A program made the position numbers and the translations under genes. A DNA stretch of 64,000 nt from Diplonema papillatum. Lineage: Eukaryota > Euglenozoa > Diplonemea > Diplonemida > Diplonemidae. The notes beneath the pieces are model-generated. The model was not told where the DNA came from. It searched no databases and saw only the letters and a program-made list of their open reading frames with translations. Position 1 is the stretch's first letter. The number at the start of each line of letters is the position of its first letter. Location: NCBI GenBank assembly GCA_030068145.1, contig JAPJBO010000120.1:248001-312000 (forward strand), written 5' to 3'. This document shows positions 17,760 through 59,392 of the stretch, piece by piece.

Positions 17760-19710
17760 CCCCCCCCCCCCCCCCCCCCCCCCGGGTCGGGGTGTTTTAT
17801 TTCTGGAAGGGTTCGGTTTTGGGGTCGGTTTCGGGTTCGGTTTTGAAACCGACCCCAAAACCGACCCCAAAACCGAACCCGAAACCGAACCTTCCAGAAT
17901 TAGTTTTGGAAACCGAACCCAAAACCGAACCCGAAACCGAACCTTCCAGAATGAGTTTTGGAAACCGAACTTGGAAACCGAACCCAAAACCGAACCCGAA
18001 ACCGAACCTTCCAGAACTAGATTTGGAAACCGAACCCACAACCGAACCATCCAGAATTAGTTTTGGAAACCGAACCCAAAACCGAACCCGAAACCGAACC
18101 TTCCAGAATGAGTTTTGGAAACCGAACTTGGAAACCGAACCCAAAACCGAACCCGAAACTGAACCGAAACCGAACCGGGAAGCCGACCCACGAAACCGAA
18201 CCAGTGCCTGATAGACCGAACCCAGAACCGAACCAATGCCCGATAGGAAACCGGACTCGGAACCGAACCGGATAGACCGAACTCGGAACCGAACCCAGAA
18301 CCGGGGAGGACGGTGGGCTAACAACCCAAGGCAAGGTGGCAACAGACGGAATCTGCAGCTCCACATTACATCACGCAAGAATGGCTGATTCCTTCCTGAA
18401 GTCATCAACTGTCTTTGTGCCCACAGGAAGCGCGAACTGAACGCAAGGACCTTCCAGACGTGGAACGCTGTACGGAGAGAAGACCACGCAACGGAGCAGG
18501 CGCCCACACGTAGTTTCTAACAGGACTAATCCCTCACACCGAAGTGATCATGAGTTGCCTTAACGAAACGAACCTTGTGGAGCTGAACTCAGGCTGATAG
18601 GTGGGCCTTCTACAACGTTAGCACCGGTCAGCAAGTAAACGTATCCGACCCCTGGCACAGAAGGCACGCGGTGGCTATCAGTAAACTGCGTCGCGCACTC
18701 AGACAGAATTGACAGCATGTACTTGGAACCCCTTCTCACGGTCAGTAACCTGGACGACAACTATGCTGGACGAATATCAGGATTCGACGACGACGAATAT
18801 CTTCGGGATGTTTCGAAAATCTTCTCAAAAAATAACACTAAAATATCGGGTCAAAAGGGTTTCCCCCCCCCAAAAAAAAAGACTCCAGATACGCAAACTC
18901 TTTCGAATGCTGCACACGGGTATCCTTCAAGTGACCTCTAACTATCTGTTGCATACGCGTATCCGGATCTGAAAGCCGAAGACCTTGTAACACTTTACCG
19001 CAACCGAAGTCGCGAACCGGGTTCGGCTTGCACTGCAAAAGCAGCATAATTGTGTCTTGCGCCCGAGCGCGGAAATCCGCCACCCGCCATTCGGCTAGAG
19101 TGCAAGAACACAATTGCGAAGCGTACTACAAACGGATAGTGTTACAAAGGCGAACGAATCATGCGAGAACCTATGGAGGGGCCCCTCGACAGCTTTCAGA
19201 ACACGGCATAGTAAGTCAAGAGTCGGATAAGCGTGTTCACATTCTACTCCCGTTTGATCTGCATTTTCCACCTTGCCCCCCTTTCTTTGATCTGCTGTGT
19301 GTATTTGCGGGACTATTGCAAAACGTATCGAATGAAAGCTAGAAGAAAGTACAAACTAATTTTCAGTTTGCTCTGTTCAGTTTCTGTTTGCTCTGGAGTA
19401 GGTTTGATGTCATCTGGCGGGTTTTCTAAAGCCAGGTACCTCAGCACATAAGTTGACGATGGAGAATTGCTTCTCAATGGTTGCGCCTTCGTTCTAAAGT
19501 TGTGTACTGAGCCAGGTAACTGACTGATCCGTACATGCAGCCAGTTTTAGTTTGCTGGGGGGGCGCGCAACGTTTCAGGTTCGGGTTCGTGATGTTCACC
19601 TTGCACTACACGTTCCAAGTGAAAGGTTCGAAGAATGGTTGAGGCGCAGCTCTTGATGGATGGAGGCACGGTTAACTTCACTTGTTGTTTGTGCGATTTA
19701 ACCTACACAC
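17760..19710. repeat. Inverted duplication, copy 1
   Basis: Nearly identical in reverse orientation to 34620-36493. Its left edge is a run of about 24 C followed by gggtcggggtgttttatttc. It contains a ccgaacccaaaaccgaac array (17815-18300) that switches strand near 17845, then about 1.4 kb of unique-looking sequence. That part carries a short minus-strand frame (18560-18760) conserved in both copies, with no recognised family. The right edge is at gtgtgtaggtt-type sequence near 19705. Confidence 0.9.
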
Positions 19711-19794: not shown

Positions 19795-20285
19795 GAAAAT
19801 TTTTCGACCAAAATTTTTCGACCAAAATTTTTGACCAAAATTTTTTGACTAAAAATTTTGACCAAAAATTTTTACCAAAAAAAATTTGGACCCAAATTCT
19901 GGGTCCAAATTTTGGACCCAAATTTTGGACCCAAAACCGAACCGAAAACCGACCCCGAAACCGAACCTTCCAGAATTAAATCTGAAAACCGAACCCAAAA
20001 CCGACCCCAAAACCGACCCCAAAACCGAACCTTCCAGAATTAAATCTGAAAACCGAACCCGAAACCGACCCCAAAACCGACCCCAAAACCGAACCTTCCA
20101 GAATTAGATTTGGAAACCGAACCCAAAACCGACCCCAAAACCGAACCTTCCAGAATTAAATCTGAAAACCGAACCCAAAACCGACCCCAAAACCGAACCC
20201 GAAACCGAACCTTCCAGAATTAGATTTGGAAACCGAACCCGAAACCGACCCCAAAACCGAACCCTTCCAGAAATAAAACACCCCC
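19795..20285. repeat. ggtcaaaattttt and ccgaacc arrays
   Basis: First an array of atttttgaccaaa units (19795-19925), then aaccgaccccaaaaccgaac with ttccagaatta spacers (19930-20275), ending ttccagaaataaaacacccc. The same end occurs at the edges of the inverted duplications and at about 30690-30715, so these arrays mark one element family. Confidence 0.85.
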
Positions 20286-23315: not shown

Positions 23316-25628
23316 GGGGGGGGGGGGGGGGGGGGGGGGGTCGTTGTATAATGGTTTAGCTTGAAGGGTGTTGGAAAGGTTGAAAAAGGTTTTGGGGGTC
23401 ACCGTCGGTTTGTGTTTTTATTTTTTTCTGTATATTTTTTTTGGGGGTAATTATTTTTTCGGGGGTTCGCGTAACCCTTCTTTTCCGGAAGATAACGTTA
23501 TCTTTTCTTTTCTCTCTGGCGCTCTTTTTCTCTCTATCTCTCTCTTTGGCTAGCAAAGCGACTATTGCGACCGACACCACGACCACACCCGTAATGAATG
23601 TGATCAAGGGCCCCCCACGTTCTACATGTTGAGCAGGGGTTGCCATGTAGCCCGTACCGGTCTAAGCCTTCATTGCAGCTTCCATAAGCACCCCCGTTGG
23701 GACGGGTCCGACGGTCCGTTAGTCATCAGCGACATCGGGCGGGAAAAAGTAAATAAAAAGAAAGGGGAAAAATGGGGGTGTGGGTGGATAAGCTCGTGGT
23801 AGGTTGTTCGGAAATAAGTACAACCTCAAACTACGCCTAGCACAGGGCCAGGCGGCATATACGTGCCTTCATCCTCTCATGTTAGTGTGCGTTCACTCGT
23901 ACAGACACTTCGAGTTTTTCCCGTTAGTCAGGGTAAACGGGTGCGGAGTGAAACATAGACCAGCCAGCAATCAAGAATCCGATGAGGCTCAAACGACGCG
24001 GATCAGAATCTCACACCCGCGAGGTGGCAACGTCTCTCATGCGCGCGGAGTCCCCTCAGACCTTGGAACGTCTGGCCATCCTTCGTGCATTCGACGGAGC
24101 AGTGTTGACATCGCAGCACCGGGGAACCTGTTAACTGCTGTTCAAACAACTGACCATGCGGTGTCAGACATTGGGAGTCCGGCAAGGGCGGGCAGGGTGG
24201 CGAATTACCAAAGGGGCAGAAGGAGTCAGGTGATCCTTCCGACTGCCGGCTCATCAAATTACCGGCTGAACCTGGGGGTGCAGGCAAGTCGGGTAGCCGA
24301 TCCTGAGTAGGAAGCACCATGGAGGGTGACGGGGCACGGACAGTCATGTCGTGGGCATTCCGGGGGATCCGGACAAAGGCCGCGAGGTAAACGTCACCCC
24401 ACGGAATGTCGTCGACAGAGGTGACGTGCAGGTCGTCGAAGAGGATCCACCCCGTGTCTTGCGCAACGTACGTGACGTAGTGCCCGCTAGCCGTATCCTC
24501 CCCCATGTGCACCACGACGGCTGCGAGGCGTAGCAGATGGTCCGGCGGTCCGAAGAAGGGGGGCAGTTTCACGTCATTCTGGCGCCTGGCACCGTTTCTC
24601 GTGTAGATGCCAAACTGCATCAGAACACATTCAGCTGTCAGACGGAGATCCATACTTTCAACCACCGTACCTACAGCCTTGCAGTCGCATACTCTCTCCG
24701 GATTCACAAACCCGTGCACGTGGAGAGAGTCTTCCAGCTTCCTTCCGCAAGGAATTTGCAAACATTGCATTACCTGACTGCTGGAAGAAGTGCGTCCACA
24801 TGCACTGCATCGTACTGAGCTGGTCCAGCCGTTCTCCAAGCATGTTACGAAGAGTTGGTAGCCCGGGCAGGGGGTCCCCGTTTCGTCCGGACCCAGCGTC
24901 GCACTAGTCGCGCTGAGTATCGCTACCAGAGCTTCGTGCGCATCGTGCTGCCGTGCATCGCAGAAGTTTGCGAACATGCTCAGGATGGCTTGGACACCCA
25001 TTCTCCGACAATCCCGGCTACGCTGGTCACCACTGTCGCGAGAGCTTGACAGCATGGCAAAGTAAGCCAGGAAGTCCCCGAGAAATCCACGGCAGTTGGG
25101 GAGGTCCTGCGCAAGGCTCCAGTACATCTCTCTGATCGGCCCAACCCGTAGCAGGAGCTGCAGCACCGCACCAAAGAAGCACGTGTTCCCCAGATTCGGG
25201 AGGCCGGCGGGGCCAAACAGCGTCGGATCATGCCTCACGGAAGGCGGGTGTGTACAAACGACTGATCGGTAGCACGTGGATGGAGGGGCAACTGTTAGAA
25301 CCGGTTTGTGGACATTCGAGCGGCGTCGCTTTGAAGCCCGTTGTTCGTCCTCTTCAGCCTTTCGCTTGTGGCCTTTCCGCGTGGACTCACGGGGGGCGGT
25401 CGTGTCAGCCTGTCGGGTCGGTGCTTCGGTGGGCGGTGATCGGGGGGAGTCATCTTCAGCTTCCGGGACAGGTTGGGGGCGGCCATTGTATTTCACGAAG
25501 GGTCTTTCAGCCAGAAGGCGCTCGATCGCAAGGTCCATCGCGGCCGGCTCTGGCAGTGATAGAGTGCGTTCCACCTCGTGAAAAAGCCAGAAGAAGTGCC
25601 CCCGCACCTTCCCGCAATGCTCGCCGGC
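23316..25628 (-). mobile_element. RT-USP retroelement, 5'-truncated member (copy B)
   Basis: It reads on the minus strand. It starts at 25628, directly after the poly-C tail of copy A, with the USP-side linker frame, and ends after about 660 bp of 3' flank in acaacga followed by 25 C (23316-23340). The 3' flank shares blocks with copy A: 23527-23730 with 25795-25990, and 23785-23860 with 26040-26130. The RT half is absent. The predicted protein is only about half identical to copy A by eye, so B is not a recent copy of A. Confidence 0.8.
24003..25628 (-). CDS. Deubiquitinase-zinc finger ORF of copy B
   Basis: About 540 open codons, beginning in frame after the poly-C junction (GEHCGKVRGHFFWLFHEVER) and ending TGA at 24003. 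A charged linker with a nuclear-localisation-like run (KGHKRKAEEDEQ, KRRRS) is followed by a complete peptidase C19 fold: Cys box GLPNLGNTCFFGAVLQ, CDARQHDAHEAL, zinc-binding CSAC and CDC pairs, His box ASGHYVTYV and LFDD. The C-terminus has CQHC followed by LRGLRAHERRC, a C2HC-type finger. All three triad positions are present, so it could be a working ubiquitin hydrolase. The first ATG-type start is not obvious; the frame probably began in the lost RT part, or a new start is used. Confidence 0.75.
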   Translation of the reverse strand, partial: AGEHCGKVRGHFFWLFHEVERTLSLPEPAAMDLAIERLLAERPFVKYNGRPQPVPEAEDDSPRSPPTEAPTRQADTTAPRESTRKGHKRKAEEDEQRASKRRRSNVHKPVLTVAPPSTCYRSVVCTHPPSVRHDPTLFGPAGLPNLGNTCFFGAVLQLLLRVGPIREMYWSLAQDLPNCRGFLGDFLAYFAMLSSSRDSGDQRSRDCRRMGVQAILSMFANFCDARQHDAHEALVAILSATSATLGPDETGTPCPGYQLFVTCLENGWTSSVRCSACGRTSSSSQVMQCLQIPCGRKLEDSLHVHGFVNPERVCDCKAVGTVVESMDLRLTAECVLMQFGIYTRNGARRQNDVKLPPFFGPPDHLLRLAAVVVHMGEDTASGHYVTYVAQDTGWILFDDLHVTSVDDIPWGDVYLAAFVRIPRNAHDMTVRAPSPSMVLPTQDRLPDLPAPPGSAGNLMSRQSEGSPDSFCPFGNSPPCPPLPDSQCLTPHGQLFEQQLTGSPVLRCQHCSVECTKDGQTFQGLRGLRAHERRCHLAGVRF

Positions 25629-28600
25629 GGGGGGGGGGGGGGGGGGTCGTTGTTGTTGGTGATGGTTTTGTGGGATGAAGTAGGGGAAAGAGAATTTCTT
25701 TTTGCGGTGGTCTCCGCTGGCCTGGTAGTCCGTGCTACCTCCTTTCTTTTACACTCGTTCTCTTCTCTACTCACTACTGTACGTACTCTTTCGCTCTTTT
25801 TCTCTCTTTGGCTAGCCAAAACAAAAGACTTCTGCGACCGACACCACGAACACATTCGCAATGAATGTGGCCCTGGGCCCCCCACGTGCATACATGTTGA
25901 GCAGGGGTTGCCATGTAGCCCGTATCGGTCTAAGTCAACACTGTTACTTTCATGGGATGTTCACCGGGGAAGGGTCCGACCTAACCGTTAGTCAACAGCA
26001 ACGTCGAAAAGGGGGAGGGGGAAAGAAGATAGAAAATCGGTGGGGTTGACAAGCTCGTAAGTGGTTGTTTGTAGATCAGTACAACCTTAAACTACGCCTA
26101 GCACACGGCCAGGCGGTCTTTAACGAACCTCCAGTACATTAAACGCAAGTCGGCAGGTCGTCATCAGACGCGGCACGAAAAGCAAACGTCGCCGACGCAG
26201 CACTTCAGCAATGCGTCCTCTTATTTACAGTGGGCACCGTACCTGAACTCAGCCCCGCTAGGCCGAGATTCCGGCTGTTCCGCAGGGCATACATCACTCC
26301 CCGAAGTTGACGTACGTGCAGAGACGTTCGTGCACATGCAGGCCTCTGAGGCCCCGGAACAATCGACCGTCCTTGGTGCGGTCGGTGAAGCAGCGCTTGC
26401 AGCGCAGTTCCGGGGGGTCCTTGGGCTGTTCAGGTGGCTGGTCGTGTGCTGCCAAAGCAGCGTCGGAGGGCATGGGTTGGCAAGATGCCAGATTCGCGTC
26501 GGTACAGGGCGGACTAGAAGGTATCAGCGGGACCTGCAGTGGGACTGTTGTTGCCATCATAGTAGGTGATGGCAAGCGTTCGACCACCTCGTGGGACGCA
26601 TTGGGGATTCGTACGTATGCGGCGAGGTATATGTCAGTCCAAGGAACGTTGTCGACGTGCAAGACTCGTTCGTCATCGAAAAGCGTCCATTGCATCCCTT
26701 GCAAGACGTATGTGACAAAATGGCCGCTTGTCGTATTTTGTCCCGTGTGTACAACCACCGCGGAAAGGCGTAGTGTGCCGTCCGGCAGTCGCAGGAGGAG
26801 CGGTAGGGAAGCGTCATTCCGTAGTCTCGCACCATCGCTTGCGTAAATGCCGAACTGCAACAGCAGGCACTCGGACGCCACATGCACGTTCATGGTCTCC
26901 ACAACGGATCCAGCAGCTCCGCAGTCACACCTCCTCTCCGGATTCATAATTCCACGAACACAGAATGCGTCCTCCACCGGCCTTCCACGAGGGACTTGAA
27001 GACACCGTACCAGTTGATGACGGGTGGATGTGGCGCCACAGGCGATACATCGTGTTGTTGTCGTCATCGTGTTTTCCAGGCACGTCTGGAAAAGCCGCCA
27101 ATCCGGACAAGCCTCCGTCGTCTCGTCCGGCCCTAGGGAGCTGTCTGTCCTATCCAGAATTGCAACCAAAGCCTCGTGCGCGTCGTGCTGTCGCGCATCG
27201 CAGAACATTGGGAGCATGGCGAGGATTGTTTCAGCCCCTATCCTTCGGCTGTCTTGGCTGAGCTGGCTCCTCCCCGAGCGCGAGCTTACCAGTAGGACGA
27301 AGTACGTCAAGAACTCCTTCAGGAACCCCCGGAAATTCAGAGGATTCTGCGCAAGACTGTAATACATGTTCTCGATCGGTTCCACACGCAACAAGAGCTG
27401 CAGTACCGCATTGAGAAAACAAGTATTCCCAAGGTTCGGGAGGCCGGCAGGTTCAAACGGTGACGGGTCGAACATGCGGGAGGGCCGTTGGATACAAATG
27501 ACAGCTTGGCGGCCGACAGCGGGTGATGATTCCAGCATGTCAGGCACTGCATGGGACACGTCGCAGCGCCGTTTCGGTCCAGGCTGAGCAGCCTCATCGT
27601 CTCTGCGCTTGCGCTTTCCTTTAGTCGTCCCATCCTGGGGCACAAGATCACGACGCTGCTTCGGAGCCGCAGTGGAAGGCCGATCGGGCGTATCTCGTTC
27701 CGTTCGTGTGCCAGGTCGAGGACGGTCCCTGTATCTCACGAAGGCCTTCTCAGCGAGCAGCCTCTCGACCGCTTGGTCGATGGACTCCAAGTCGGGCATC
27801 TGCAGAATGCGTTCCACTTCATGTACGAGCCACACGAAGTGCGCACGGATCTTCTCGCAGTGATCACCGAACTTCGCTTCTGGGTACGTGTCTAGTAACC
27901 ATTTACGAAACCCACTTTTTAAGACACTCTTGCGGTACCCCCGTCTCATGAGCTTCAGCACCGTGTTGTTCATCTCGGTCTTAAAGTCATGGAGGTTGTT
28001 CGCAATCCTGCCGTTACGCACAAGCGCTCCGATGAGGATACTCGACCCAAAGTTCGATGGAGCCGTGGAGAGCACGGATGTGTACGCCAAGGGCTGGTAT
28101 CGGTATGCCTTCGCTTTGTCGAGGACTGACAGGCGCATGTATCTCCTCCCGGACATCTCGGAGACTTCATGTCGAATCCGAATACCAAGGAAAGTGGCGT
28201 CCCCAACCTTGGCGTTTGTCTGTTTGTACCTCATGTTGTACACAGATTCCGGTGGGGGTTTTGTGCCGAAACACAACAGATCGTCAATGAAGCGGCGTGT
28301 CAGGCTAAGCAATGCCGCACGTTGCGTGTCCCCGTCTTCCAAGAGTCGCATCATGTATTTTCGCTCTTTCGCATAGCAAAAGAGGTTGGCGATGTCCGGG
28401 GAAGCGTTCGCACCCATTGGGATGCCTAGCGTCTGCCTCATGAGAACCCTATTGACCAGAACATAGGTATTCACCAGGCAGAAAGACAAGAGGGTCTTGA
28501 GCTCCTGCGCCGAATACGCTGCTTCATGTGACCGTACCTCCGTGTTTACCTTAAAGGCGAAACAGCGCTTCTTACGAGTCGGCCCGTGTTGGCTCTTCGG

Positions 28601-30024
28601 ACGTACTAATACGAGTCTTCCCGCGTCCACGTTCAAACGTGCAGCCTCCGCCGCGAAGGCCTCATTAATCGTGTCCGCAACCGCATTAAGAAGCTCCTCA
28701 AGCTCCAGCTGGTCATACATCGTTGTAAAGTCAAATGTACCAGCGTCCAGCTGCGCGAGTTCGTCCGCGTGTGTCTTCAGGAAGAAGGCCGTGTCGTCGC
28801 TCGACTCCGTGATCCAGAAGTACCGGTACCCAGTCGCGTTGAACCGAATGTCGTCTTCCCGCCGGAGGATGCTCATGATCGCCTTCAGCAAGCCGGTCAG
28901 GTCCAGTTGCGCGTCCGTCGTAGACGAGAACGTGGTCTTAGGGCGGGCGTCCCGTCCAGCATCGGCCGCCTCGGAGTCGGAGTCGACACAGTTCTTCCGC
29001 GAAACCCCAGCGATGTACCGCATGGACGTCACTTCCTTGTGCAGCTTCAGGGTGCCATATAGGTATGGGAGGACGTTCGATGAGTGTAATCCTTCCCGTC
29101 CGAGGTAGGCCTTGTGCCTCGCAATGACTTGTTGAGGCGTCTCTTCGCTCGGGGAGTAGTTCGTACTGTGATTGACCTTCGCGTGTAAGTCCTGGTTGTA
29201 AAATCTTTTACACACGAAGCCGAAATCATGCGAGCTCTTGTCCACGGGCAGGATCACGAGATGTTCCTGCAACTCCAACAGTTTTTTACGCGCTCCAGCC
29301 GTCAGCTCCGGATCGGCTCCCACCCGGGAGAGGTCAACCGTGGCTAGTATCTTCCTCCGTAGCATCCTTGCGAAGTGCGGAGGGGCGTCCTTGAATTGCT
29401 CCTCAACGAACTGGGTCACAGCTTTGTCGACCTCCCTGCAAACGGCTTCTTCCCCACCGTCCGGTCGGAACTTGCGACCCTTGTCAAAAAGCGAAATTAG
29501 CTCGCTCGACGTTTTGAGGAGGTGTGCCTGCCCGCACGCATGCCCTTGGATGTGGTATCCGTCTAGAAGGTAGCGTTGGCAAGGGCATTCACCAGGGGGA
29601 GGGGCCGGGGCAGCAGTTGTTTGTCGCGAAACATCCGTAAAGTTTGACAGAAGGACCCCGAGGGGAGGATTAAGCGACGTGGAAACCCTCGTGTTCACGA
29701 AGTCCGTTGAGTCCGCGAGCATTTCACGGAGTTCGGTATCGTGACGGAAAACGGCGGCTAGCTTCCTTTCATCCATCATCTTGCTCACCTGCCGTATGCA
29801 GAACCAAGGCGTTCGTGCTGCACTCTTTTTCTTCTTCGCAAGATGGTTGATCTCACTAAGCCTCGCCGTGAGCAGCTCGTCCAGGATTGCTACCTTCGGG
29901 TGCTGCAGGTGCTCAACCATGAACATTCGCACCCAGGTACGAACTCTGTAAACGCGGCACGTCCTCGGAATGTATTTTTCGACACAGCCACGAAACCTGA
30001 AGGAGGTTTTCAGGTTCTGGCAGG
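25629..30024 (-). mobile_element. RT-USP retroelement, long member (copy A)
   Basis: It reads on the minus strand from about 30024, where a short TIR element abuts, to a tail of 18 C (25629-25646) preceded by acaacga. One long open frame occupies 26294-29926, followed by about 650 bp of 3' flank shared with copy B. No long terminal repeats are seen. The RT has the signature of a non-LTR-type family known from animal genomes, not an LTR element. The open frame looks whole. Confidence 0.8.
26294..29926 (-). CDS. Reverse transcriptase fused to ubiquitin-specific protease and zinc finger
   Basis: Single frame of 1210 residues from the first in-frame ATG (29924-29926); the frame stays open upstream to about 30027. 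Residues 112-155 (ECPC, IQGHACG, LFDKGRKFRP) and 226-242 (VDKSSHDFGFVCKRFYN) match the N-terminal signature of a widespread eukaryotic RT family that I know from cnidarian and fish genomes. RT motifs: LYGTLKLHKEVTSMRYIAG (about 289-307), motif A TFDFTTMYDQLE (397-408), motif B LGIPMGANASPDIANLF (500-516), motif C FIDD (546-549). A basic linker (KGKRKRRDD, KRRCD) leads to a peptidase C19 domain: Cys box GLPNLGNTCFLNAVLQ (C836), QHDAHE (913-918), zinc pairs (960/963, 1000/1002), His box SGHFVTYV (H1069), FDD (1084-1085). A C2HC finger (C1176, C1179, H1199, C1203) ends the protein. No endonuclease is recognised. The fusion is in one frame without an intron. Confidence 0.88.
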   Translation of the reverse strand: MFMVEHLQHPKVAILDELLTARLSEINHLAKKKKSAARTPWFCIRQVSKMMDERKLAAVFRHDTELREMLADSTDFVNTRVSTSLNPPLGVLLSNFTDVSRQTTAAPAPPPGECPCQRYLLDGYHIQGHACGQAHLLKTSSELISLFDKGRKFRPDGGEEAVCREVDKAVTQFVEEQFKDAPPHFARMLRRKILATVDLSRVGADPELTAGARKKLLELQEHLVILPVDKSSHDFGFVCKRFYNQDLHAKVNHSTNYSPSEETPQQVIARHKAYLGREGLHSSNVLPYLYGTLKLHKEVTSMRYIAGVSRKNCVDSDSEAADAGRDARPKTTFSSTTDAQLDLTGLLKAIMSILRREDDIRFNATGYRYFWITESSDDTAFFLKTHADELAQLDAGTFDFTTMYDQLELEELLNAVADTINEAFAAEAARLNVDAGRLVLVRPKSQHGPTRKKRCFAFKVNTEVRSHEAAYSAQELKTLLSFCLVNTYVLVNRVLMRQTLGIPMGANASPDIANLFCYAKERKYMMRLLEDGDTQRAALLSLTRRFIDDLLCFGTKPPPESVYNMRYKQTNAKVGDATFLGIRIRHEVSEMSGRRYMRLSVLDKAKAYRYQPLAYTSVLSTAPSNFGSSILIGALVRNGRIANNLHDFKTEMNNTVLKLMRRGYRKSVLKSGFRKWLLDTYPEAKFGDHCEKIRAHFVWLVHEVERILQMPDLESIDQAVERLLAEKAFVRYRDRPRPGTRTERDTPDRPSTAAPKQRRDLVPQDGTTKGKRKRRDDEAAQPGPKRRCDVSHAVPDMLESSPAVGRQAVICIQRPSRMFDPSPFEPAGLPNLGNTCFLNAVLQLLLRVEPIENMYYSLAQNPLNFRGFLKEFLTYFVLLVSSRSGRSQLSQDSRRIGAETILAMLPMFCDARQHDAHEALVAILDRTDSSLGPDETTEACPDWRLFQTCLENTMTTTTRCIACGATSTRHQLVRCLQVPRGRPVEDAFCVRGIMNPERRCDCGAAGSVVETMNVHVASECLLLQFGIYASDGARLRNDASLPLLLRLPDGTLRLSAVVVHTGQNTTSGHFVTYVLQGMQWTLFDDERVLHVDNVPWTDIYLAAYVRIPNASHEVVERLPSPTMMATTVPLQVPLIPSSPPCTDANLASCQPMPSDAALAAHDQPPEQPKDPPELRCKRCFTDRTKDGRLFRGLRGLHVHERLCTYVNFGE

Positions 30025-31058: not shown

Positions 31059-32735
31059 GTAATATACCAGGATATGCGCGAAAAACTAAAATTTACAAAC
31101 ATATGCGCGGTGCATATATTTGTAAATTTTAGTTTTTTCGCGCATATATTTGTAAAAAAAAACAGTTTTTTCGCGCATATATTTGTAAAAAAAACAGTTT
31201 TTTCGCGCATATATTTGTAAAAAACAGTTTTTTCGCGCACTACAAATACGTTTTCTTTGCAACAAAAGCAGAGCGCCTCTTATCACTGGAGGCTGGCATA
31301 CCCAGACCCGCAAACCCGCATACCCTAAACCCGCAAACCTTCGCATACCCTAACCCGCAAACCCCGCAAACCCGCATACCCGAACCCGCCAACCCTAATA
31401 CCCGCATACCGAGACCCGCAAACCCGCATACCCTAACCCGCAAACCCCGCAAACCCGCATACCCTAACCCGCAAACCCCGCAAACCCGCATACCCTAACC
31501 CGCAAACCCCGCAAACCCGCATACCCGAACCCGCCAACCCTAATACCCGCATACCGAGACCCGCAAACCCGCGTACCCTAACCCGCCAACCCGCGTACCC
31601 TAACCCGCAAACCCCGCAAACCCGCGTACTCTAACCCGCAAACCCGCCAACCCGCGCACCCTAACCCGCAAACCCCGCAAACCCGCATACCCTAACCCGC
31701 AAACCCCGCAAACCCGCAAACCCGCCGTGCCGGAACTGTTTTGCAAATACACACAGCAGATCAAAGAAAGGGGGGCAAGGTGGAAAATGCAGATCAAACG
31801 GGAGTAGAATGTGCACACGCTTATCCGACTCTTGACTTACTATGCCGTGTTCCGAAAGCTGTCGAGGGGCCCCTTCATAGGTTCTCGCATGATTCGTTCG
31901 CCTTTGTAACACTATCCGTTTGTAGTACGCTTCGCAATTGTGTTCTTGCACTCTAGCCGAATGGCGGGTGGCGGATTTCCGCGCTCGTACCTTGTGTCTT
32001 TTCGAAACACTGCCACGGGGCTGGTGGCCCCCAAAATGGAAAGAAAAAATTGCTCAACTTCATCAAAAATTACCGCAGTTTTTGTTCCAAAATTTTAAAA
32101 TTCAAAAACCCCAATTTTTTTCCGGAATTTCTTTTTTGGCCGTTTCCAAAAAGACACAAGGTTTTGACCCTGCATGGTACATCCGTTGTGGAACCTCTCG
32201 TTGTTTTTGGCATCATACACCCGAAATAGTCACTTTGTGGGCCCTATAATAGGCTACGAACTTCATGGTATTTTTACAAATGTGTGAGTGTATGTCATTT
32301 TGTATAGTACGTTGAAGTACATTCATTGTGGACCCCATATTCTCGCGATGCTGTGTTTGGCGTCAAAAACCCGTCTGAATTCACTTTTGATGGCTTTAAT
32401 GAGGCTAAACACTCGAAATAGGCACTTTGGGGGGAATTTTTTTTGAAAGGGTCTCCCAACAAGAATTGTGGCATATGCGCGAAAAAACTGTTTTTTACAA
32501 ATATATGCGCGAAAAAACTGTTTTTTACAAATATATGCGCGAAAAACTGTTTTTTTTACAAATATATGCGCGAAAAAACTAAAACTGACAAACATATGCA
32601 CCGCGCATATATTTGTCAATTTTAGTTTTTTCGCGCATATATTTGTAAAAAAAACAGTTTTTCGCGCATACGTTTCGTATGCGCGCAGTTTTTTCGGCAG
32701 TTTATCGCGCATATATTTGTAAGTTTCCCAAAAAT
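31059..32735. mobile_element. Element D1 with tatgcgcgaaaa palindromic arrays
   Basis: It begins ggtaatataccaggatatgc and ends atatttgtaagtttccca. Both ends hold several units of atatgcgcgaaaaactg / cagttttttcgcgcatat in opposite orientation, with a palindrome around gcgcggtgcatat. The interior has a telomere-like array (31305-31730), about 250 bp shared with the inverted duplications (31740-31985), and sequence containing acaaggttttgaccctgcat, also seen at 8797-8820. No protein is recognised. Confidence 0.75.
31305..31730. repeat. Telomere-like ccctaacccgcaaac array
   Basis: Units of about 15-31 bp built from ccctaaccc, gcaaaccccg and gcaaacccgcata repeat about 20 times. The ccctaa core recalls the (TTAGGG)n telomere repeat, but the array is degenerate and internal. 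Confidence 0.8.
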
Positions 32736-36504: not shown

Positions 36505-39110
36505 CACGGTGCAGTAGTAAAGGCTTTCACTAGTAAATTTACTAGTGGTTCTTCAAGTGAAAATGGTTTACAAGTGCCACTAGTAAATTTTACAAGTGCA
36601 CTAGTAAAATTTACTAGTGCACTAGTAAAATTTACAAGTGATTTCAGGTGTTTTGGCAGGTGTTTTGGGGTGAAACAAGAAGAACCTGGGGCAAGTGAAG
36701 CACACATTCAGAAGAACCGGCTTCTTTTTCACCTAACTCGTCAAAATGGGGCTGGGAGAGCAGAGCAAAGTGTCAACCCAGTGCTTGAGAGCCCCGCGCG
36801 TAGGCAGACCGCGTCAATCCAGGTTTCCCCCACTCCAAGGCAAACGTGAACATTCGAACACGACCCCCCTCTGGCTCGATGCGGTGGGAACACGGGACAA
36901 TAACATCGGAAGAGACGGAGCGCGAGGGAGGAGGCGTCCTTGTCCTCTCAGAGCAGAGTCGTGCACAGGTACGTCCTGGTACCAGAACTAGAGTTGCACG
37001 GAAGACGCTCTGGTACCTTGCGCGTTTGGCCCAGGAGGTTACGAATATCTCTGCCTGCGTGCGTCTTATGCCGGACAGGCTTGGCATCCATTTTTTGGAC
37101 TGAGTCGTGGGCAACGGTGCGGTCAACTCTGCAAGGCAAATACCGTAAACGGAAATAAGTTGGACCGGACAAAATGGTCCAACTCACCTATTTTGGGCTC
37201 TGGTGGTCCAACTTTTGTCCGGCCAACTTTTTTCGGGGGGTTCTGTGTACTTGGTGCAGTTTTGCGGCTGGCCAGCACTCGCTCCACTCCGTAGTCGCGC
37301 ATGGGTCCGCCGCCAGGAGTTCCCGAACACTGCGCGGCGCTGCGTAACCCGCTGAGTTCCCTCCAGCAACTTGCAACGAAGCACCCTGGCCATGGTCCAG
37401 CCATTGGTCGCCATGGTCCTGTGGTGGAATCACAAGATTTTCCTTGCGTGGAAGGATGTTTGATCGCGACCGGTTGCGGTTGGTCAGTGCCGAGGGTGGA
37501 CCAAGATGCGTCCACCGTCTGTCCCATTGCTTTGGTAGAGTGCAAACGCAAAAATGCAGAGTGCAAACGAGGTGGCTCGAGGTTGGCTGACAGTGAAGGA
37601 AAAAGTATGAGCCGCCAATAAACGACGATCTTAGTACGCTCAAGAAGAAACCCAACGCATCTCTCGCGCCTGACTACCCATTTGTCAAGGGACATTTTTT
37701 TACCTCATGCCCATCGACCCAACCCCGCCTAAGTGGATACGTGCCTGGGTGGAAATATGTTGGACCGGACAAAATGGTCCAACTGTTTTGGGCGTCCGCG
37801 GTCCAACATATTTCCGGTCCAACTTACTCCTGCTTATGGTATGAGAGATCCACGGGGGGTTTCGAGAACTTGAGGATTCTTGTCAACACGAGGGTGCTAG
37901 GGGAAGTTGTTTGGGCTGTTGCCGTGAGATTAGTACTTCTTGGGGTTTGGCGGTTGCTTGGTCGGGTCGGGGTGTTGGGAACGAACGCGGTGTGCCTACT
38001 GCTTCATTTTATTGTCGTTGATTCTTGGGGTGTTGCTGCCGCTGCCGTGCTTGCGTTCTCACCTTCTTCCTATGCTTGTAGGGCCCATGTTGCCCTTTCA
38101 GCGCACTTGTCTCCCGGGCAGCTGGCACGCGTAGAGCCACACTCCGGATTACCGCGTGGTTCCCTTCGCATAGGCGTCCAGGGCCTGCATTCGGGTGGGT
38201 GCCCGAACACCGGCCTTTGGTCCGCCTCCGGCTGAAACCATCTAAGGTGCGCTGTGTCGCCCGCTGTCAGAATGTGTTGAGAGGTGGCCTTTTCGTTGCA
38301 CCCTCCTAAACCACATATATCCGCTGTGCCGTTTTGTAGAATCGATTGCCTCACTAGCGCACTGCTCCGCTGGACCTCCGGAGTTGGTGCAGCGTCTTGC
38401 CGTTGATGCTGCTCTGTGGCGCGTTTAGTCGCTCTCGGAGTCTGCGGTTCCTCTGATGCTCGAGGGTCCCCCGTGCAAACCTGCCGATATTGTCAAGATC
38501 CCTGCTTGGGCAAAGCCTCCGTGCCGAAGCGTGTCGGGAAGTGGCAGGCATGCTCGGACCGACTGGAAGTATTCGCAACAGTCAGGTGGCCGCTTCTGCC
38601 CAGGGTTCGTCGCCATTGTAGACTGTGTTTCACTGCTGTGAATTTGGCACGACACCACTCACAGTGCGTCTCTCTTGCCTCCGTTTCTTCTCATTTTGTA
38701 GACGCTTTTCCTCGGCAGCTGTCAACTAGCTCAACAAAAGTCTCAGGGTAGAGGGGCTGGACAGTGCGTACAGTTCCAGTTGGGTGCGCACTGCTCCTCT
38801 CATCCTTTTTCAACGGCGCGGCTGTATATCCGGGGAGATGATTCCCATCAAGGCTCCCATCAACCCTGCCCAACTCAGTCCGAGGGGAAGTGCACCTCGA
38901 CCAAACCTCCCCAGTTTTCGATCTCGCAATTTTTCACGCAAAACCCATATAAATCACTGTTTTGGACTGAAAAACACCTGAATTCACTTGTAAAATTTAC
39001 AAGTGCACTAGTAAAATTTACTAGTGCACTTGTAAATTTTACTAGTAAAAGTTTTTACTAGTAAATTTACTAGTAAAAGGGTCATTTTACAAGTTTACTA
39101 CTGCACCGTG
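36505..39110. mobile_element. TIR DNA element E, TA target, actagtaaatt arrays
   Basis: Perfect TIRs cacggtgcagtagtaaa (36505-36521) and tttactactgcaccgtg (39094-39110) are flanked by TA. Subterminal arrays of actagtaaatttactagt and acaagtgcactagtaaaa lie at 36528-36640 and 38990-39080. The interior has no recognised transposase and contains a nested element (37152-37827). Its right end lies 37 bp from the splice donor of the orphan glutathione reductase exon, inside what would be its intron 1. Confidence 0.88.
37152..37827. mobile_element. Nested TIR element with gttggaccgg hairpins
   Basis: It begins with aagttggaccggacaaaatg and ends with ccggtccaactta. Each end forms its own hairpin (gttggaccggacaaaatgg ... 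gtccaac), with 37751-37815 a near-perfect palindrome. TA lies at both borders. No transposase frame is recognised. Confidence 0.7.
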
Positions 39111-39147
39111 TAGTCCCTAGATTTGCAAGGGAGAGTTTATTGCACAC

Positions 39148-39543
39148 CTGAACTGTGTGCTGGTCGAGAAGCTTTCCAAAGCCTTCTATTACTTCCACGC
39201 CACTACTGTCTAGAATCTTGCGGTACACTGCATTCAACCGATGCATCTCAGCCTTTTTCTTGTCCATCAGCTGCCGCCAATCGTGGGTCAGGTTGCTGCA
39301 TGTCCATCCATAACCTTCGCTATCCTTGAAGTCGTGCCCGTAATGTCCGCCGTACCACAGGAGCTTCTTCGGGACACATCCACGGAGCACGCATGTACCC
39401 CCGAGGCCGCCCTTTTCTGGTGTAAACGGCAGCTCGACAAGGCCGACCTTTGGTTTTGTAGCCTGTTGAGCCGCCCATCGACTTGCTCGGACACCACCAC
39501 TGCCGCCGCCTAGAACTAGGAGATCGAACATGAAGTCAGTCAT
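39148..39543 (-). pseudogene. Orphan glutathione reductase exon 1
   Basis: This 396-nt open segment from ATG (39541-39543) to a GTGTGC donor has exactly the length and phase of exon 1 of the complete gene at 43461. It encodes MTDFMFDLLVLGGGSGGVRA and GGTCVLRGCVPKKLLWYGG, so the FAD-binding loop and redox-active CVLRGC are intact. It differs at many residues from the full gene (for example TCSNLTHDWRQL for RPGKIEHEWKPL) yet has no internal stop. Exons 2-4 are not found anywhere to the left: DNA element E starts 37 bp beyond the donor and the repeat island follows. It is most simply a partial or disrupted tandem duplicate lying downstream of the complete gene on the same strand. Confidence 0.85.
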
Positions 39544-40554
39544 TTTTATGACCCAATCTATACCTCTCCTGTCACTGCACAAAGTCAGACTAGTTCGCGC
39601 ATGGACCAAAACAAAGTCTGCCAAACCAGGATAGCAGAGGCTGAGAACCTCATTCGTCCATTCGTAGTGAGCGAATAGAGGCACTTGGTAACCAAAAAAA
39701 AGAGAGCTTCGTAGTTCCGCCGTACTTCTCCCGTGCTTTTGACCGAATTTGTAATATTGTTACCAATGCCGCCCGAGCATTGAAAGACGTCCATGCCGAT
39801 GGATGCTTCGCCCTCCGCTTATGCTATCGAAAGAGAGATTGAACTGGCATTGCTGTTCTATCTTTTTCACCAAGCTGCGAATTTAGGAATGCACTTGCAA
39901 GAAATGTGGAGAAGAACCGTAAGCCTGCACGCGCGGCGATAGGCCGGGTAAGAAACGCGTATACATTGCTACACAAATTAGGATGTGTTGCTGAAAAGTT
40001 AAATGCCGACACGGCCGACTACTTCTTGCACCGCCGCGCCAAATGCAGGAGGAGGGAGGCAACGTTGAATCAAAGAATCGTGGAGTTGCGGCAAAAGCCA
40101 GCAGCCGCTTAATTATATATTATGCCATCTGAGGCTGTTGAGAAGGAAGATTCTCAAACAACAGGATGCAAGGGGGAGAGCTGCAATAGAAGGGAAAATC
40201 GTATCAAATCCGTCTGCACAGCGACCGTCTGCCGGGTAAAACAAGCCTTCCTTGGCCTCTTTTCGCGCAGAGGGTGCTAGACGACGAGAGTAAACAAGCC
40301 ACGGAGACCCGCAATCGAGTCCTCAGCGTTTTCAGGACGGCTTCCTGAAGGGGATATTCCGACATCTACTGACTTCGATGTCAATTCCGCGAGACCTCAT
40401 TTATAGCAACACGGGAAGCCTCAACATCAGTTCGGCTCGAGTGAAGGGCGCGCCATGAGTGTCCAGTGGCCCACGTGTATCTTGCATGGTGCAGATTAAT
40501 AAGCTGCAGATTAATAAGCACGCAGCACTTCCTCAACCTTCACACGTGTACCGC
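39544..40554. other. Intergenic between reductase copies
   Basis: Downstream of the full reductase stop and upstream of the orphan exon. A short plus-strand frame at 39906-40112 (starting MEKNRKPARAAIGRVRNA) is basic and helical but has no family assignment. Confidence 0.35.
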
Positions 40555-46850: not shown

Positions 46851-48733
46851 TCACGAGTTGTCGTCGCTGCTTTCGAAGGACTCGAAGTCATCCTCGTAGT
46901 CGAAGTAGTCGTCGTCGGATCCGCATTCCTCGGCGGGTTCGAAATCGTCCCCATATTCGTCTTCGGCATTCTCTTTCTTGGCAAACTTTGCGGGCGTTCG
47001 TACAACCGCAGCATCTTGCTTTGTGGGCGAAACAACCGGCAACGTGCACGGCTGCTCCGCTCGGCCGTTTGGTGAGGAAGGGCTGCTGCCGGACGCCATG
47101 GATGAAATAGACAAAACCATCTTCGAAACCGCCTCGCTCTTGTCCCGACGGGACTCCCGCCTGTTCGGCGTAGGTTCCCCGGGTTCGCTCTTGGCCCGCT
47201 TTTTGAGCCCGGGCGGCACTTCAATCATCGGCGTGTCTTCTCCTACGTACTGCGACAATGCAGTGTCTCTGCACAACTTCGCAGCGCTTGGACGGTCCCT
47301 AGGCTCGATGACGAGAATGCTTGTCAGCAGCCGGAGGACATCAGGATCTGCCGTGTCTGGAATAGGCTCATACACCCCGCTTTGAATTCGTTTGTAAACG
47401 CCGCGTAGCGACTTGCCTTGGAACGGCTTTTGTAGGAAGGCGAGCTCGTAGGCGATGACACCGGCGGACCAGACGTCGGTTTTGTTGTTGAAAGGCTTCT
47501 TTTCGACGACTTCCGGCGCGAAGTAATACGGCGTGCCCACCATTTGCCCGCTGTAGTTCTCGTCATCTTCGATCTTGCGCGAGAGGCCGAAGTCTCCAAG
47601 TTTGACACGCAGTTCGGAATCCAGGAAGACGTTCGCAGTCTTCAGGTCGCGGTGCAGCACCCGGCTCGAGTGCAGGTGTCGCAACGCCGCGCATAGCTCG
47701 GCGAACCATTTCAGCACCTCTTCTCGCGCAAAGCTGCATTGAGTCGTTTTCTTGTCTTCAATCTGTTGTGCCAGCGTCCCGCGGCTTGCGTATTCGAGCC
47801 TGTGTTTTTGACAAATTTCGTTTCGACCTTAATTGTGTGCTGCGCATGCAGCCCTTTCGAAATAGGTTTTACTTTGAGCTCAGCAATCGAGGAGATGATT
47901 GCATTCAGTCTGGGCATCGTCGAAAATACGCGTAAGAGGCTGAAAGGCATACACAATATGCAAGACATGAGTGGTGCAGAAGGAATCTAAGCATCGAATG
48001 ACGTTCATGTGATTGAGAGACTTCAGAAACGTCACCTCAAGTTCCGCCTGTTCAGGTTATTTCAATTTTTTCCAGACTCGACTCGACTTGAAGCTAACAC
48101 GGTTACTTCCAATCAAATCAAGTTGATGTAAAAACTAGCACGACTTTGAGCTTGCACACCTTCTTACGTTGATCGTCCTTCAATAGAGTCAGGTCGACCT
48201 CCTTGACGACTAGCTCCCTGCCATCGTTGTTCTTTGCCTGGGATTTGTTGATGTAATTGTAACTTCCCGTATTGCAGAAAGACGGTGGACCGACGTAGCT
48301 CATCTCACGTTGGTCGCAATTGAGGAGCGGGACCAAGTATCTTTTCGTTTGTCCTATCGCGAGTCGTGGCTTTTATTTGCCGCGCATCAGTTCTTTTAGA
48401 CCTATCGATTCAAAGGCAGAGTTGTCGGTGCTCGTCCTCGGACCGACGAAATCAAGCAAAGCAATCGAGCAAGCACAGTGCGGAATGTTGGTGTCGTAGC
48501 AACAAAGTTCATACCAGATATGCCTTCGCGAAAGCCCCTCGGCCGACCTCAATTCGGTTACAGCCCTTCGTCAGAAACTCAAGATGCCTATCGCGCATCG
48601 CCTTTTCCAACGCCGCGGACCCCCGCCAGATGTTGAGTGTCTCGTCGTCATCGATCGTGGGCATGAGATTAATCGTCGGGGCGGGCTCATTGCCAGTTGT
48701 AAAGAGGCCGAACCCCTTCGGGCGGCCTCGCAT
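46851..48733 (-). CDS. NEK-like serine/threonine protein kinase, four exons
   Basis: Exons 48733 to 48515, 48237 to 48160, 48047 to 47953 and 47799 to 46851 join in phase to 446 residues. Kinase landmarks in order: glycine loop GRGAFAKAYL (64-73), catalytic Lys in VVKEVDL, helix C region AELEVTFLKSLNHMNVIR, hinge LEYASRGTLAQQI, catalytic loop HRDLKTANVF, DFGLSRK, activation segment GTPYYFAPEV, DVWSAGV. The CxNVIR pattern, HRDLKTANVF and the hinge are NEK-like. The C-terminal tail turns Ser/Pro-rich and then very acidic with aromatic residues (EDEYGDDFEPAEE, DYFDYEDDFESF). NEKs act at centrosomes, basal bodies and cilia. The 5' 30 residues before the kinase are unusual. The first ATG after an upstream stop was taken as start. 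Confidence 0.9.
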
Positions 48734-56701: not shown

Positions 56702-59311
56702 TTAATGATGACGGTACGGCAGCTGGACGCGCTCAAGAGCAGCCATCCAAGTAACATCCAACGGGCGGTCAAGCAAAAACACCATTGCCTCTGACAGCAC
56801 AGCATTGACAGTTGGGAATGATACCACATGAGCCCCCGGATCGACGTCCAGCACAGCCGCGCTTTCGTGCGGAAGATGCAGCAAAACAACTCGCCTCAAG
56901 GCAATGGCAGCATCGTCCGGAGAGAGCTCCAGCAGGCACGAGGTGATGGCGGCTGAGCCGACAAATTGCTCGCACCGGCTTCGGGTCGATCGCGCGTTGC
57001 CGAACGCGAACGCGCGGGACTGCGGGGCGAAGTTCTTGAACGCGGTGACCACCAAATCGCTGCCGTCTGGATGCTGCGAGACGACCAGCACGGGATCCCG
57101 CATGCCGCGGCTTCGAAGAACCAGTTCGACGACCGAAATCACGCACAGCGACCCAGCCCGCATCGTCCCGAGCGTCGCCTCCATGAACACCTCTGCTTGC
57201 GCATTGAAACGCTGCGATGCACACGGCTCTTCGACCAAAAAGCACACCGACGCGTCCTCCAGCGACACTCGCCAACGGCGTGAGAAACAGTGCAGTGCCT
57301 CGAGAATGAACGTTTTGAGCCCGGTTGCGGGTCCCTCGTAGGCGGAGGCGTGCGTGATTCTGTCTTTTCCTGCGTTGTGCAGGAAGGCAGATACAACGTA
57401 TTTACTGGCTGATTCGCGCACGTGCACGACGAGGAGCCACGGGAGAGAGACGGTGAGACGGTCAGGTGCACTGTGCAACGGCTGCCGAATCTGCGGTTTT
57501 GACACCGTCGCTCGGTGGAAAGAGGACGGGACGGCACCACCTGGATGCTCGTGCGTCATCTTCGGCTGCATTTTGGCAGCGCTGCTGCGTGTGTGGCCCC
57601 CGGGCCGCCAAATGGGCTCGGGGGGCGGCCGTACTAAGCAACGGCCAGCGTCTCTCGTCTCATGATTATGCCTCCGTGTACCTCCCCTTACTGTCGTTCT
57701 CCTTGTTTCAGGCCGACGACGTTGGCCTCTGTCTTGGCCTGAATCCGCGGCAAACTCTGTACTGTCACATGGCAACCTGGCGGTCTCTGAAAAGTATGGA
57801 GCCTCATCCTTCTCCGCAGTCTTCGCCTGGTCCCGCATGTGCCTGGCTGTGTCCTTTTTCTGATGATCGGCACCTTTACCAGGGTGCAGTGTCAACGGGC
57901 TGTCAACTTCCCTTTCAACACTGGTGTGCGTCTCGCCGTGATATGCTTCTCCTTTAGGCTCAACACGGATGCCAGGACGCACCTGACTCAGGTCCAACAC
58001 GCGCCTCACCGCTGCGTTCTCATCCTGACACCTGGCTCTAGGGACTTCACTAAACCTGTCGGCTCCCGTGTGTCGTACAAACGAGCCGTCAACCTCGGTT
58101 TCAACACTGGTGTGCGTCTCGCCGTGATATGCTTCTCCTTCACGCACAATACGGATGCCAGGCCGTACCTGACTCAGGTTCAACACGTGCCTCGCCGCTG
58201 CGTTCTCATCCTGACACCCGGCTCTAGAGACCTGGTGGGCTTCACTGAATCTGTTGGCCCCTGTGTGTCGTATAAACAAGCCGTCAACTTCGCTTTCGAC
58301 GCTGACATGCGTCTCGCCGTGATGTACTTCTCCTTCGGGCGCAATACGTATGCCAGGGCGTGCATGACTCAGGCCCCGCACGTGCCCCGCGGCCGTGTTC
58401 TCATCCTGACACCCGGCTCTACGGACTTTATTTAACCTATCGGCCTCCGTGTGTCGTACAAACGAGCCGTCAACTTTGTTTTCAACACTAATGTGCGTCT
58501 CGCTGTGGTATGCTTCTCCTTCACGCGCAATACGGATGCCAGGATGTGCCCGACTCGGGTCCAACACGTGCCTCGCCACTGTATTCTCATCCTGACACCC
58601 GGCTCCGGGGACCCGGTGGCCTTCACTAAACCTGTCGGCCCCCGTGTGTCGCACAAACGATCTGTCAACTTCGTGTTCGACACTGGTGTGCGTCTCGCCG
58701 TATTTTGCTTCTCCTTCACGTGCAATACGTTTGCCAGGACGTGCATGACTCAAGCCCCGCACGTTGGTCGTGGCTGTGTTCACATCCTGACGCCCGGCTT
58801 TATCAGACGCTACAAACGAGCCGTCAACTTTGGTTTCAACACTATTGTGCGTTTCACCGTGATATGCTTCTCCTTCATGCACAATACGTATGCCAGGATG
58901 TGCCCGACTCGGGTCCAACACGTGCCTCGCCGCTGTATTCTCATCCTGACACCCGGCTCCGGGGACCCGGTGGCCTTCACTAAACCTGTCGGCCCCCGTG
59001 TGTCGCACAAACGGAGATCCGTCAATTTTGTGCTCAACACCGGTCTGCGTCTCGCCGTGATATGCTTCTTCTTCACGTGCAGAATGTATGCCAGGACGTG
59101 CATGACTCAGGCCCCGCACGTGCCTCGTGGCTGTGTTCGCATCTTGACGCCCAGCTCCAGGGACCCGGTGGTGTTCACCTAACCCGTCGGCCTTCGTGTG
59201 TCGTTTAAACAAGCCGCCAGCTTCTTCATCAACATCAGTGTGCGTCTTGCTATGATTTGCTTCTCCCCCACGCGCAATACCGATACCGAATCGCGAGGTA
59301 TCCGTGCGCAT
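56702..59311 (-). CDS. Large protein with eight ~60-residue tandem repeats and a globular C-terminus
   Basis: One continuous open frame; the first ATG (59309-59311) gives 869 residues, and the frame is open about 27 codons further upstream. Residues about 10-490 consist of eight units with consensus RPGIRI..EGEAYHGETHTS, then VE.EVDGSFVRHTGADRFSE, then AGCQDENTAARHVLD; units three and five to eight are the most alike. The repeats are polar and charged, His-rich, with one Cys per unit. After a basic linker, residues about 640-869 look like a folded domain (LPWLLVVHVRESASKYVVSA, FILEALHCFSRRWRVSLEDA, AGSLCVISVVELVLRSRGM), which I cannot assign. The repeat DNA unit is about 180 bp, so unit gain and loss by recombination is likely. 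No signal peptide or membrane span is visible. Confidence 0.7.
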   Translation of the reverse strand: MRTDTSRFGIGIARGGEANHSKTHTDVDEEAGGLFKRHTKADGLGEHHRVPGAGRQDANTATRHVRGLSHARPGIHSAREEEAYHGETQTGVEHKIDGSPFVRHTGADRFSEGHRVPGAGCQDENTAARHVLDPSRAHPGIRIVHEGEAYHGETHNSVETKVDGSFVASDKAGRQDVNTATTNVRGLSHARPGKRIAREGEAKYGETHTSVEHEVDRSFVRHTGADRFSEGHRVPGAGCQDENTVARHVLDPSRAHPGIRIAREGEAYHSETHISVENKVDGSFVRHTEADRLNKVRRAGCQDENTAAGHVRGLSHARPGIRIAPEGEVHHGETHVSVESEVDGLFIRHTGANRFSEAHQVSRAGCQDENAAARHVLNLSQVRPGIRIVREGEAYHGETHTSVETEVDGSFVRHTGADRFSEVPRARCQDENAAVRRVLDLSQVRPGIRVEPKGEAYHGETHTSVEREVDSPLTLHPGKGADHQKKDTARHMRDQAKTAEKDEAPYFSETARLPCDSTEFAADSGQDRGQRRRPETRRTTVRGGTRRHNHETRDAGRCLVRPPPEPIWRPGGHTRSSAAKMQPKMTHEHPGGAVPSSFHRATVSKPQIRQPLHSAPDRLTVSLPWLLVVHVRESASKYVVSAFLHNAGKDRITHASAYEGPATGLKTFILEALHCFSRRWRVSLEDASVCFLVEEPCASQRFNAQAEVFMEATLGTMRAGSLCVISVVELVLRSRGMRDPVLVVSQHPDGSDLVVTAFKNFAPQSRAFAFGNARSTRSRCEQFVGSAAITSCLLELSPDDAAIALRRVVLLHLPHESAAVLDVDPGAHVVSFPTVNAVLSEAMVFLLDRPLDVTWMAALERVQLPYRHH

Positions 59312-59392
59312 CGTTCGGGGATTATCCTGCGTTCGGTGAAGGGCAGTAAACAACAAATCCTGGGGTGTTTTCAGTAGTTTTTCTATGCACAC

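Follow-up and report, generated by a model that had tools for sequence, protein, structure and literature searches.

In a 64,000 nucleotide stretch of the genome of Diplonema papillatum (GenBank assembly GCA_030068145.1, contig JAPJBO010000120.1, positions 248,001 to 312,000; referred to here as the window) we have identified a retroelement copy whose single open frame joins a reverse transcriptase (RT) to a ubiquitin-specific protease (USP) of family C19. On balance, we read it as a copy, truncated at its 5' end, of a Penelope-like retroelement with an N-terminal endonuclease (Chlamys-like) that has been active recently and the USP of which would act in cis to protect the ribonucleoprotein (RNP) of the element; in the anatomy and the type of the element as such we have high confidence. 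The original prediction, made from the letters of the window, had proposed an RT and a C19 USP in one uninterrupted frame, and this was confirmed on the minus strand at 26294-29932, where 1212 codons counted from a GTG contain no internal stop and where the Cys box, the His box, the third residue of the triad and the C2HC finger are all present. Its assignment of RT and USP to one protein of a mobile element stands. The copy is 5'-truncated, with loss of a GIY-YIG endonuclease. What can be added to it is the strand, the Penelope-like type with N-terminal GIY-YIG, and a neighbouring USP copy of a second family (family B) at 24003-25607.

The presence of a C19 domain in the C-terminal half is carried by a Pfam UCH match (E 3.1e-23, residues 830-1095 of the window frame), and all 37 matches at E <= 0.01 in a PDB sequence search with this frame were ubiquitin carboxyl-terminal hydrolases, headed by USP36, USP12 and USP46. 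Like host C19 USPs (USP12/46, USP36) the domain has the catalytic triad, the zinc cysteines and a profile match over its whole length; unlike them it belongs to a mobile element, in which RT and GIY-YIG are part of the same protein. The RT was read by eye from motifs A (FDFTTMYD), B' (LGIPMGANASPDIANLF) and C (RRFIDD), so that the FIDD and accompanying motifs of the predicted RT were found while its RVT profile was matched only below threshold (E 0.1). In longer copies the order of domains is GIY-YIG endonuclease, CxC linker, RT, basic stretch, USP and C2HC finger. The GIY-YIG domain stands at the N-terminus of a 1562-residue frame in family A (Pfam 22.9 bits against a cut-off of 22.6; E 4.5e-06 on the region alone); its region contains no cysteine in families A, B and C, all three of which have the CPC (CxC) motif. 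Between RT and USP lies a fast-evolving linker with a basic stretch (TTKGKRKRR...PKRRC), the basic character of which recurs in families B, C and D; this stretch is nuclear-localisation-like and suggests a nuclear destination for the protein. The window copy has lost its endonuclease through 5' truncation and for the same reason has no genuine start. The protein probably starts near Met78 of the long frame, with a predicted length of approximately 1485 residues, because omega between families B and C was 0.81 before Met78 (p 0.28) and 0.08 just after it. Two candidate interpretations were rejected on these grounds, namely that the window frame is a complete gene (its 5' end is the truncation at 29958) and that its GTG is a start codon (selection begins near Met78).

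The genome searched was that of the window itself (271 Mb in 2910 contigs), and matches were scored from the best candidates only. A DNA search with a 3633-base query gave at least 43 matches, 24 of them over the full query, and 15 of the 19 partial matches start at the 3' side of the element; at least 40 places have 99-100% identity. At the protein level 23 of 41 matches span all 1212 residues and all but one lack an internal stop; an open frame of 1562 residues is found in 13 copies and one of 1570 in another. The 3' ends of 20 copies fetched for comparison agree within a few bases at a poly-C run, while the 5' break points vary; the window copy, with its break at 29958, is 99.98% identical over 4322 bases to L009, the copy taken to represent family A. 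The other families read were B (L029), C (L030) and D (L031, with an incomplete N-terminus). A search with the family-B tail produced 81 matches at 73-100% identity, none of those scored having an internal stop and 14 lying in 1585-residue frames. The RT-USP fusion was found in all four families, between which USP identity is 55-88%. That the frame is a host gene, or two neighbours joined by chance or by an assembly error, could be entertained for a single long intact frame taken alone, but the 40 dispersed near-identical places with staggered 5' truncations, a common 3' end and duplications, together with the recurrence of the same fusion in four diverged families, leave this with a negligible probability, and it was ruled out on copy structure and families. 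A chance junction of two genes is likewise contradicted by the 81 stop-free family-B-tail matches. Two further observations concern family A: a pair of identically truncated copies 62 kb apart (G000:C97:318338-321104 and 380450-383216), each with the same family-B-like piece at equal distance, probably arose through segmental duplication or duplicate assembly, and a 222-bp tandem array of 3.4 copies in the 5' region before the frame (L009:7732-8497) may contain a promoter.

The USP has been kept under purifying selection between families, which indicates from the sequences that it matters to the element. Its omega was 0.21 between B and C (p 1e-18), 0.18 between B and D and 0.17 between C and D (all p <= 3e-14), that of the RT was 0.05 in each of these pairs, and that of the finger was 0.08, 0.27 (p 0.08) and 0.07; pairs with family A, being near or at synonymous saturation, were not relied on. 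The four families retain unchanged the catalytic Cys, His and Asp, the Asn preceding the Cys box, the QHDAHE motif, the zinc cysteines (CxxC...CxC) and the residues of the finger, whereas constraint is locally absent from the tail that separates USP and finger (sliding omega of 1.09 at 1441-1500). As related elements have kept the USP under selection, it probably aids the spread of the element. Capture of host sequence is common in retroelements, and it is also discussed in parts of PMC6431247. The USP might be such a passenger, a host fragment without use; with omega at 0.17-0.21 between families, an invariant triad and zinc residues, and 81 of 81 family-B-tail matches free of internal stops, this is very improbable, and passenger capture was ruled out on omega and residue conservation. 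It should also be considered that several USP-like proteins are inactive, and a catalytically dead or weak USP serving as a ubiquitin-binding module would be of this kind. We consider this improbable, given that none of the four families has lost any of the three catalytic residues or the Asn that precedes the Cys box, and we take the USP to be, as judged from its residues, a likely active cysteine deubiquitinase.

As to what the enzyme would act on, we propose that the USP strips ubiquitin in cis from the element's own protein or RNP, and that the RNP would thereby escape proteasomal removal for long enough to integrate. The targets suggested in the original prediction, namely the element's own protein, host chromatin and defence factors, are all plausible candidates. 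An alternative is that the USP acts mainly on host proteins, deubiquitinating, at the target site, histones or factors of repair, silencing or defence, with the effect that chromatin is opened for nicking and second-strand synthesis or that a ubiquitin-based defence is blocked. The basic stretch conserved in four families suggests nuclear action, and the nearest solved structures by sequence are those of USP12, USP46 and USP36, the targets of which are nuclear or nucleolar and include histones; moreover, the USP changes faster than the RT, as a host-facing enzyme may. This likeness is one of general fold, however, and says little on substrate, and fusion to the RT equally fits action in cis, so that a mainly host-directed role appears rather unlikely to us.

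The origin of the module was addressed through the 149 UCH matches in the genome, many of which are element copies. Among 20 places fetched, one of which is a metallo-beta-lactamase gene, the USP closest to those of the elements is in a frame on contig C9, with 57% identity to family A and 50-53% to families B, C and D. This frame (G000:C9:544900-546840; L052, L049) is 702 residues long and has a metallo-beta-lactamase domain (Pfam 1e-08; motifs HADQDH and PHHGSH) and no RT upstream of the USP. Its metallo-beta-lactamase part has one match in the genome (nine candidates scored), which makes it single-copy. In a tree built without two host USPs, L051 and L050 (the latter with 13 stops in the frame read), the C9 USP adjoins the element USPs, which group without it (98/93), and a long branch sets them all apart from 17 host USPs. 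The synonymous difference is 0.61 between the C9 USP and family A and 0.73 between families A and B. Two origins can be envisaged, capture of the USP by the element from such a gene or construction of a host gene with the USP of an element; distances of this kind favour neither. In either event the mobile element, a young one, has an enzyme module in common with a cellular gene present in single copy. In a wider scenario, to which we give little credence, a Chlamys-like lineage would use an active deubiquitinase as counter-defence against ubiquitin-based removal of its RNP, with the USP module passed between element and host and the C9 metallo-beta-lactamase (possibly nuclease) gene having supplied the module or having been built from it by the host, and then perhaps turned against elements.

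Insertion appears to be directed by homopolymer tracts. Copies of family A terminate in ...ACGACCCCCC, with family B terminating alike, and a C-run of at least 7 marks the 3' junction of 15 among 17 copies and the 5' flank of 12. Clear target duplications, of 38 and 37 bp, were seen in two of the 15 copies of a test set that left out the window copy and L027; the maximum among controls (210 mismatched flank pairs) was 21. A piece of the 3' untranslated region (UTR) lies upstream in seven of 20 fetched loci, as a pseudo-long terminal repeat (pseudo-LTR); in the one family-B copy examined, none of its own 3' UTR was seen upstream. In the window the family-B copy begins directly after the family-A poly-C (25629-25646), the two being head-to-tail neighbours. 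Family-B USP sequence also directly follows a family-A poly-C in L011. The poly-C tails look like landing sites for later copies. The copy in L020 seems to have inserted into a related element, because its 37-bp duplication resembles the family-B 3' UTR. No hammerhead ribozyme was found in L009 up to E 10, nor at gathering scores in four loci. We propose that the protein enters the nucleus together with its RNA, that the GIY-YIG endonuclease would nick at a poly-C/poly-G tract, and that the C-run at the 3' end of the RNA would pair with the exposed G-run and prime reverse transcription. Each copy, ending in poly-C, would then itself become a target, giving rise to head-to-tail neighbours and pseudo-LTRs, which would explain why family B starts directly after the family-A poly-C. 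Insertion by priming of a C-run at a nicked G-run seems to us quite likely.

Penelope-like elements with an N-terminal endonuclease form the Naiad/Chlamys clade, of which a CxC motif between endonuclease and RT is a mark; further traits are an insertion bias to simple repeats, the lack of a canonical hammerhead and an insertion-in-fingers domain in the RT, and a CCHH motif in the endonuclease separates Naiad from Chlamys, in which it is absent. The clade was reportedly described by Craig and colleagues in Mol Biol Evol in 2021. The present element resembles Naiad/Chlamys elements in its N-terminal GIY-YIG, CxC linker, RT, pseudo-LTRs, simple-repeat insertion and lack of a hammerhead, and Chlamys in particular in an endonuclease without cysteines. 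It is unlike them in its C-terminal USP and C2HC finger, and we know of no USP in Naiad/Chlamys elements. The fit to Chlamys follows from domain order, pseudo-LTRs, the common 3' end, 5' truncations, target duplications and poly-C insertion. Viruses often carry deubiquitinases to evade host control. Chlamys elements have been reported in Ectocarpus (PMC12477816), and these share with ours the Chlamys group, a protist-grade genome and recent activity; the main text of that paper describes no USP and does not contain the word ubiquitin. Canonical Penelope elements, such as that of Anolis, are similar in having RT and GIY-YIG in one frame, tandem copies and pseudo-LTRs, but in the passages available on the Anolis element the GIY-YIG is C-terminal, a hammerhead is present and there is no USP (PMC11167929). 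Terminons and rotifer LTR elements likewise carry accessory enzymes, with modules apparently common to unrelated elements, but the enzymes named in the passages seen are esterases, exonucleases and Rep proteins, and ubiquitin is mentioned there only for domains of the planarian Burro (PMC6431247, PMC5408684).

The supposition in the original prediction that an RT+C19 fusion is unreported holds within the open literature searched, to which most subscription papers and that of Craig and colleagues do not belong; no description of a Penelope-like element with a USP was found there. Within this literature GIY-YIG and ubiquitin-specific protease occur together in a single paper, on BAF and herpesvirus, Penelope-like and deubiquitin- words in four papers, and Penelope and USP in one, on a mite genome. 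No relatives elsewhere were confirmed in viral_contigs or genome_contigs, in scans limited to a few peptide patterns each; NCBIfam had no match for family A and a single one, far under cut-off, for family C, while in PHROGs a weak match was obtained for A but not for C. Should the USP prove active and necessary, this would amount to direct evidence for a eukaryotic retroelement being held in check through ubiquitin, an idea that is open to a test of one residue, the catalytic Cys.

Several points weigh against the reading given here. The RT call rests on its motifs and on a sub-threshold RVT_1 match (E 0.1) of the isolated family-A region, aligned at motifs B'-C; Pfam gave no RT family on whole proteins or on the isolated RT part of family C, and profiles of the four families gave no PDB match for the RT. 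The element is accordingly termed Chlamys-like and not a proven member, its RT being placed by motifs rather than in an RT tree, and the GIY-YIG matches of families B and C fall just under the cut-off (22.4 and 20.0 against 22.6 bits). Predicted structures of the USP half and of the GIY-RT half have a mean predicted local distance difference test (pLDDT) score of 34, a low confidence that is probably due to a shallow alignment. In 13 of the 15 copies tested the duplication was not above controls, which we attribute to duplications obscured by homopolymer or rearranged, and no duplication was seen at the 5' flank of the window copy. The USP has changed at roughly four times the rate of the RT (omega 0.21 against 0.05). 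Finally, activity, substrate and expression of the USP are deduced from sequence, and self-protection as its main role, which we infer, has in our estimate somewhat less than an even chance of being correct.

Table 1. Features of the two element copies in the window (positions counted from the first nucleotide of the window).
Feature	Position	Strand	Basis or remark
Family-A element copy, 5'-truncated at 29958	25629..29958	-	99.98% identical to L009 over 4322 bases
Poly-C tail of family-A copy (element sense)	25629-25646	-	
3' UTR of family-A copy	25647..26293	-	
Open frame: CxC linker, RT, basic linker, USP, finger	26294..29932	-	
CPC (CxC motif), linker between lost endonuclease and RT	29579..29587	-	
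RT region	27803..29302	-	Motifs; RVT_1 E 0.1, sub-threshold
RT motif A	28712-28741	-	
RT motif B'	28379-28429	-	
RT motif C (FIDD)	28280-28297	-	
Basic stretch	27563..27628	-	Alignment of families
USP (C19) domain	26645..27448	-	Pfam UCH 3.1e-23; residues invariant in four families
USP Cys box LGNTCF	27416-27433	-	
USP QHDAHE	27173-27190	-	
USP zinc CxxC	27035-27049	-	
USP zinc CxC	26918-26929	-	
USP His box SGHFVTYV	26705-26728	-	
USP LFDDE	26669-26683	-	
C-terminal C2HC finger, C-x2-C...H-x3-C	26315..26407	-	
Family-B element copy, 5'-truncated, own poly-C 23316-23340	23316..25628	-	
Family-B open frame: end of RT, linker, USP, finger; 534 aa	24003..25607	-	Pfam UCH 1.1e-21

Elsewhere in the window, frames resembling host genes were named by eye as glutathione-reductase-like (39082-39684), NEK-like kinase (46851-47717) and thiamine-pyrophosphokinase-like (62559-63245). 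An 896-residue frame at 56702-59392 lies on a tandem repeat array of 195/381 bp (repeats at 57894-59164), and minisatellite-like arrays of the AAACCGAACCC type and the CCCGCAAACCCGCATACCCTAA type are present at 17870-18203, 19929-20277 and 31330-31715.

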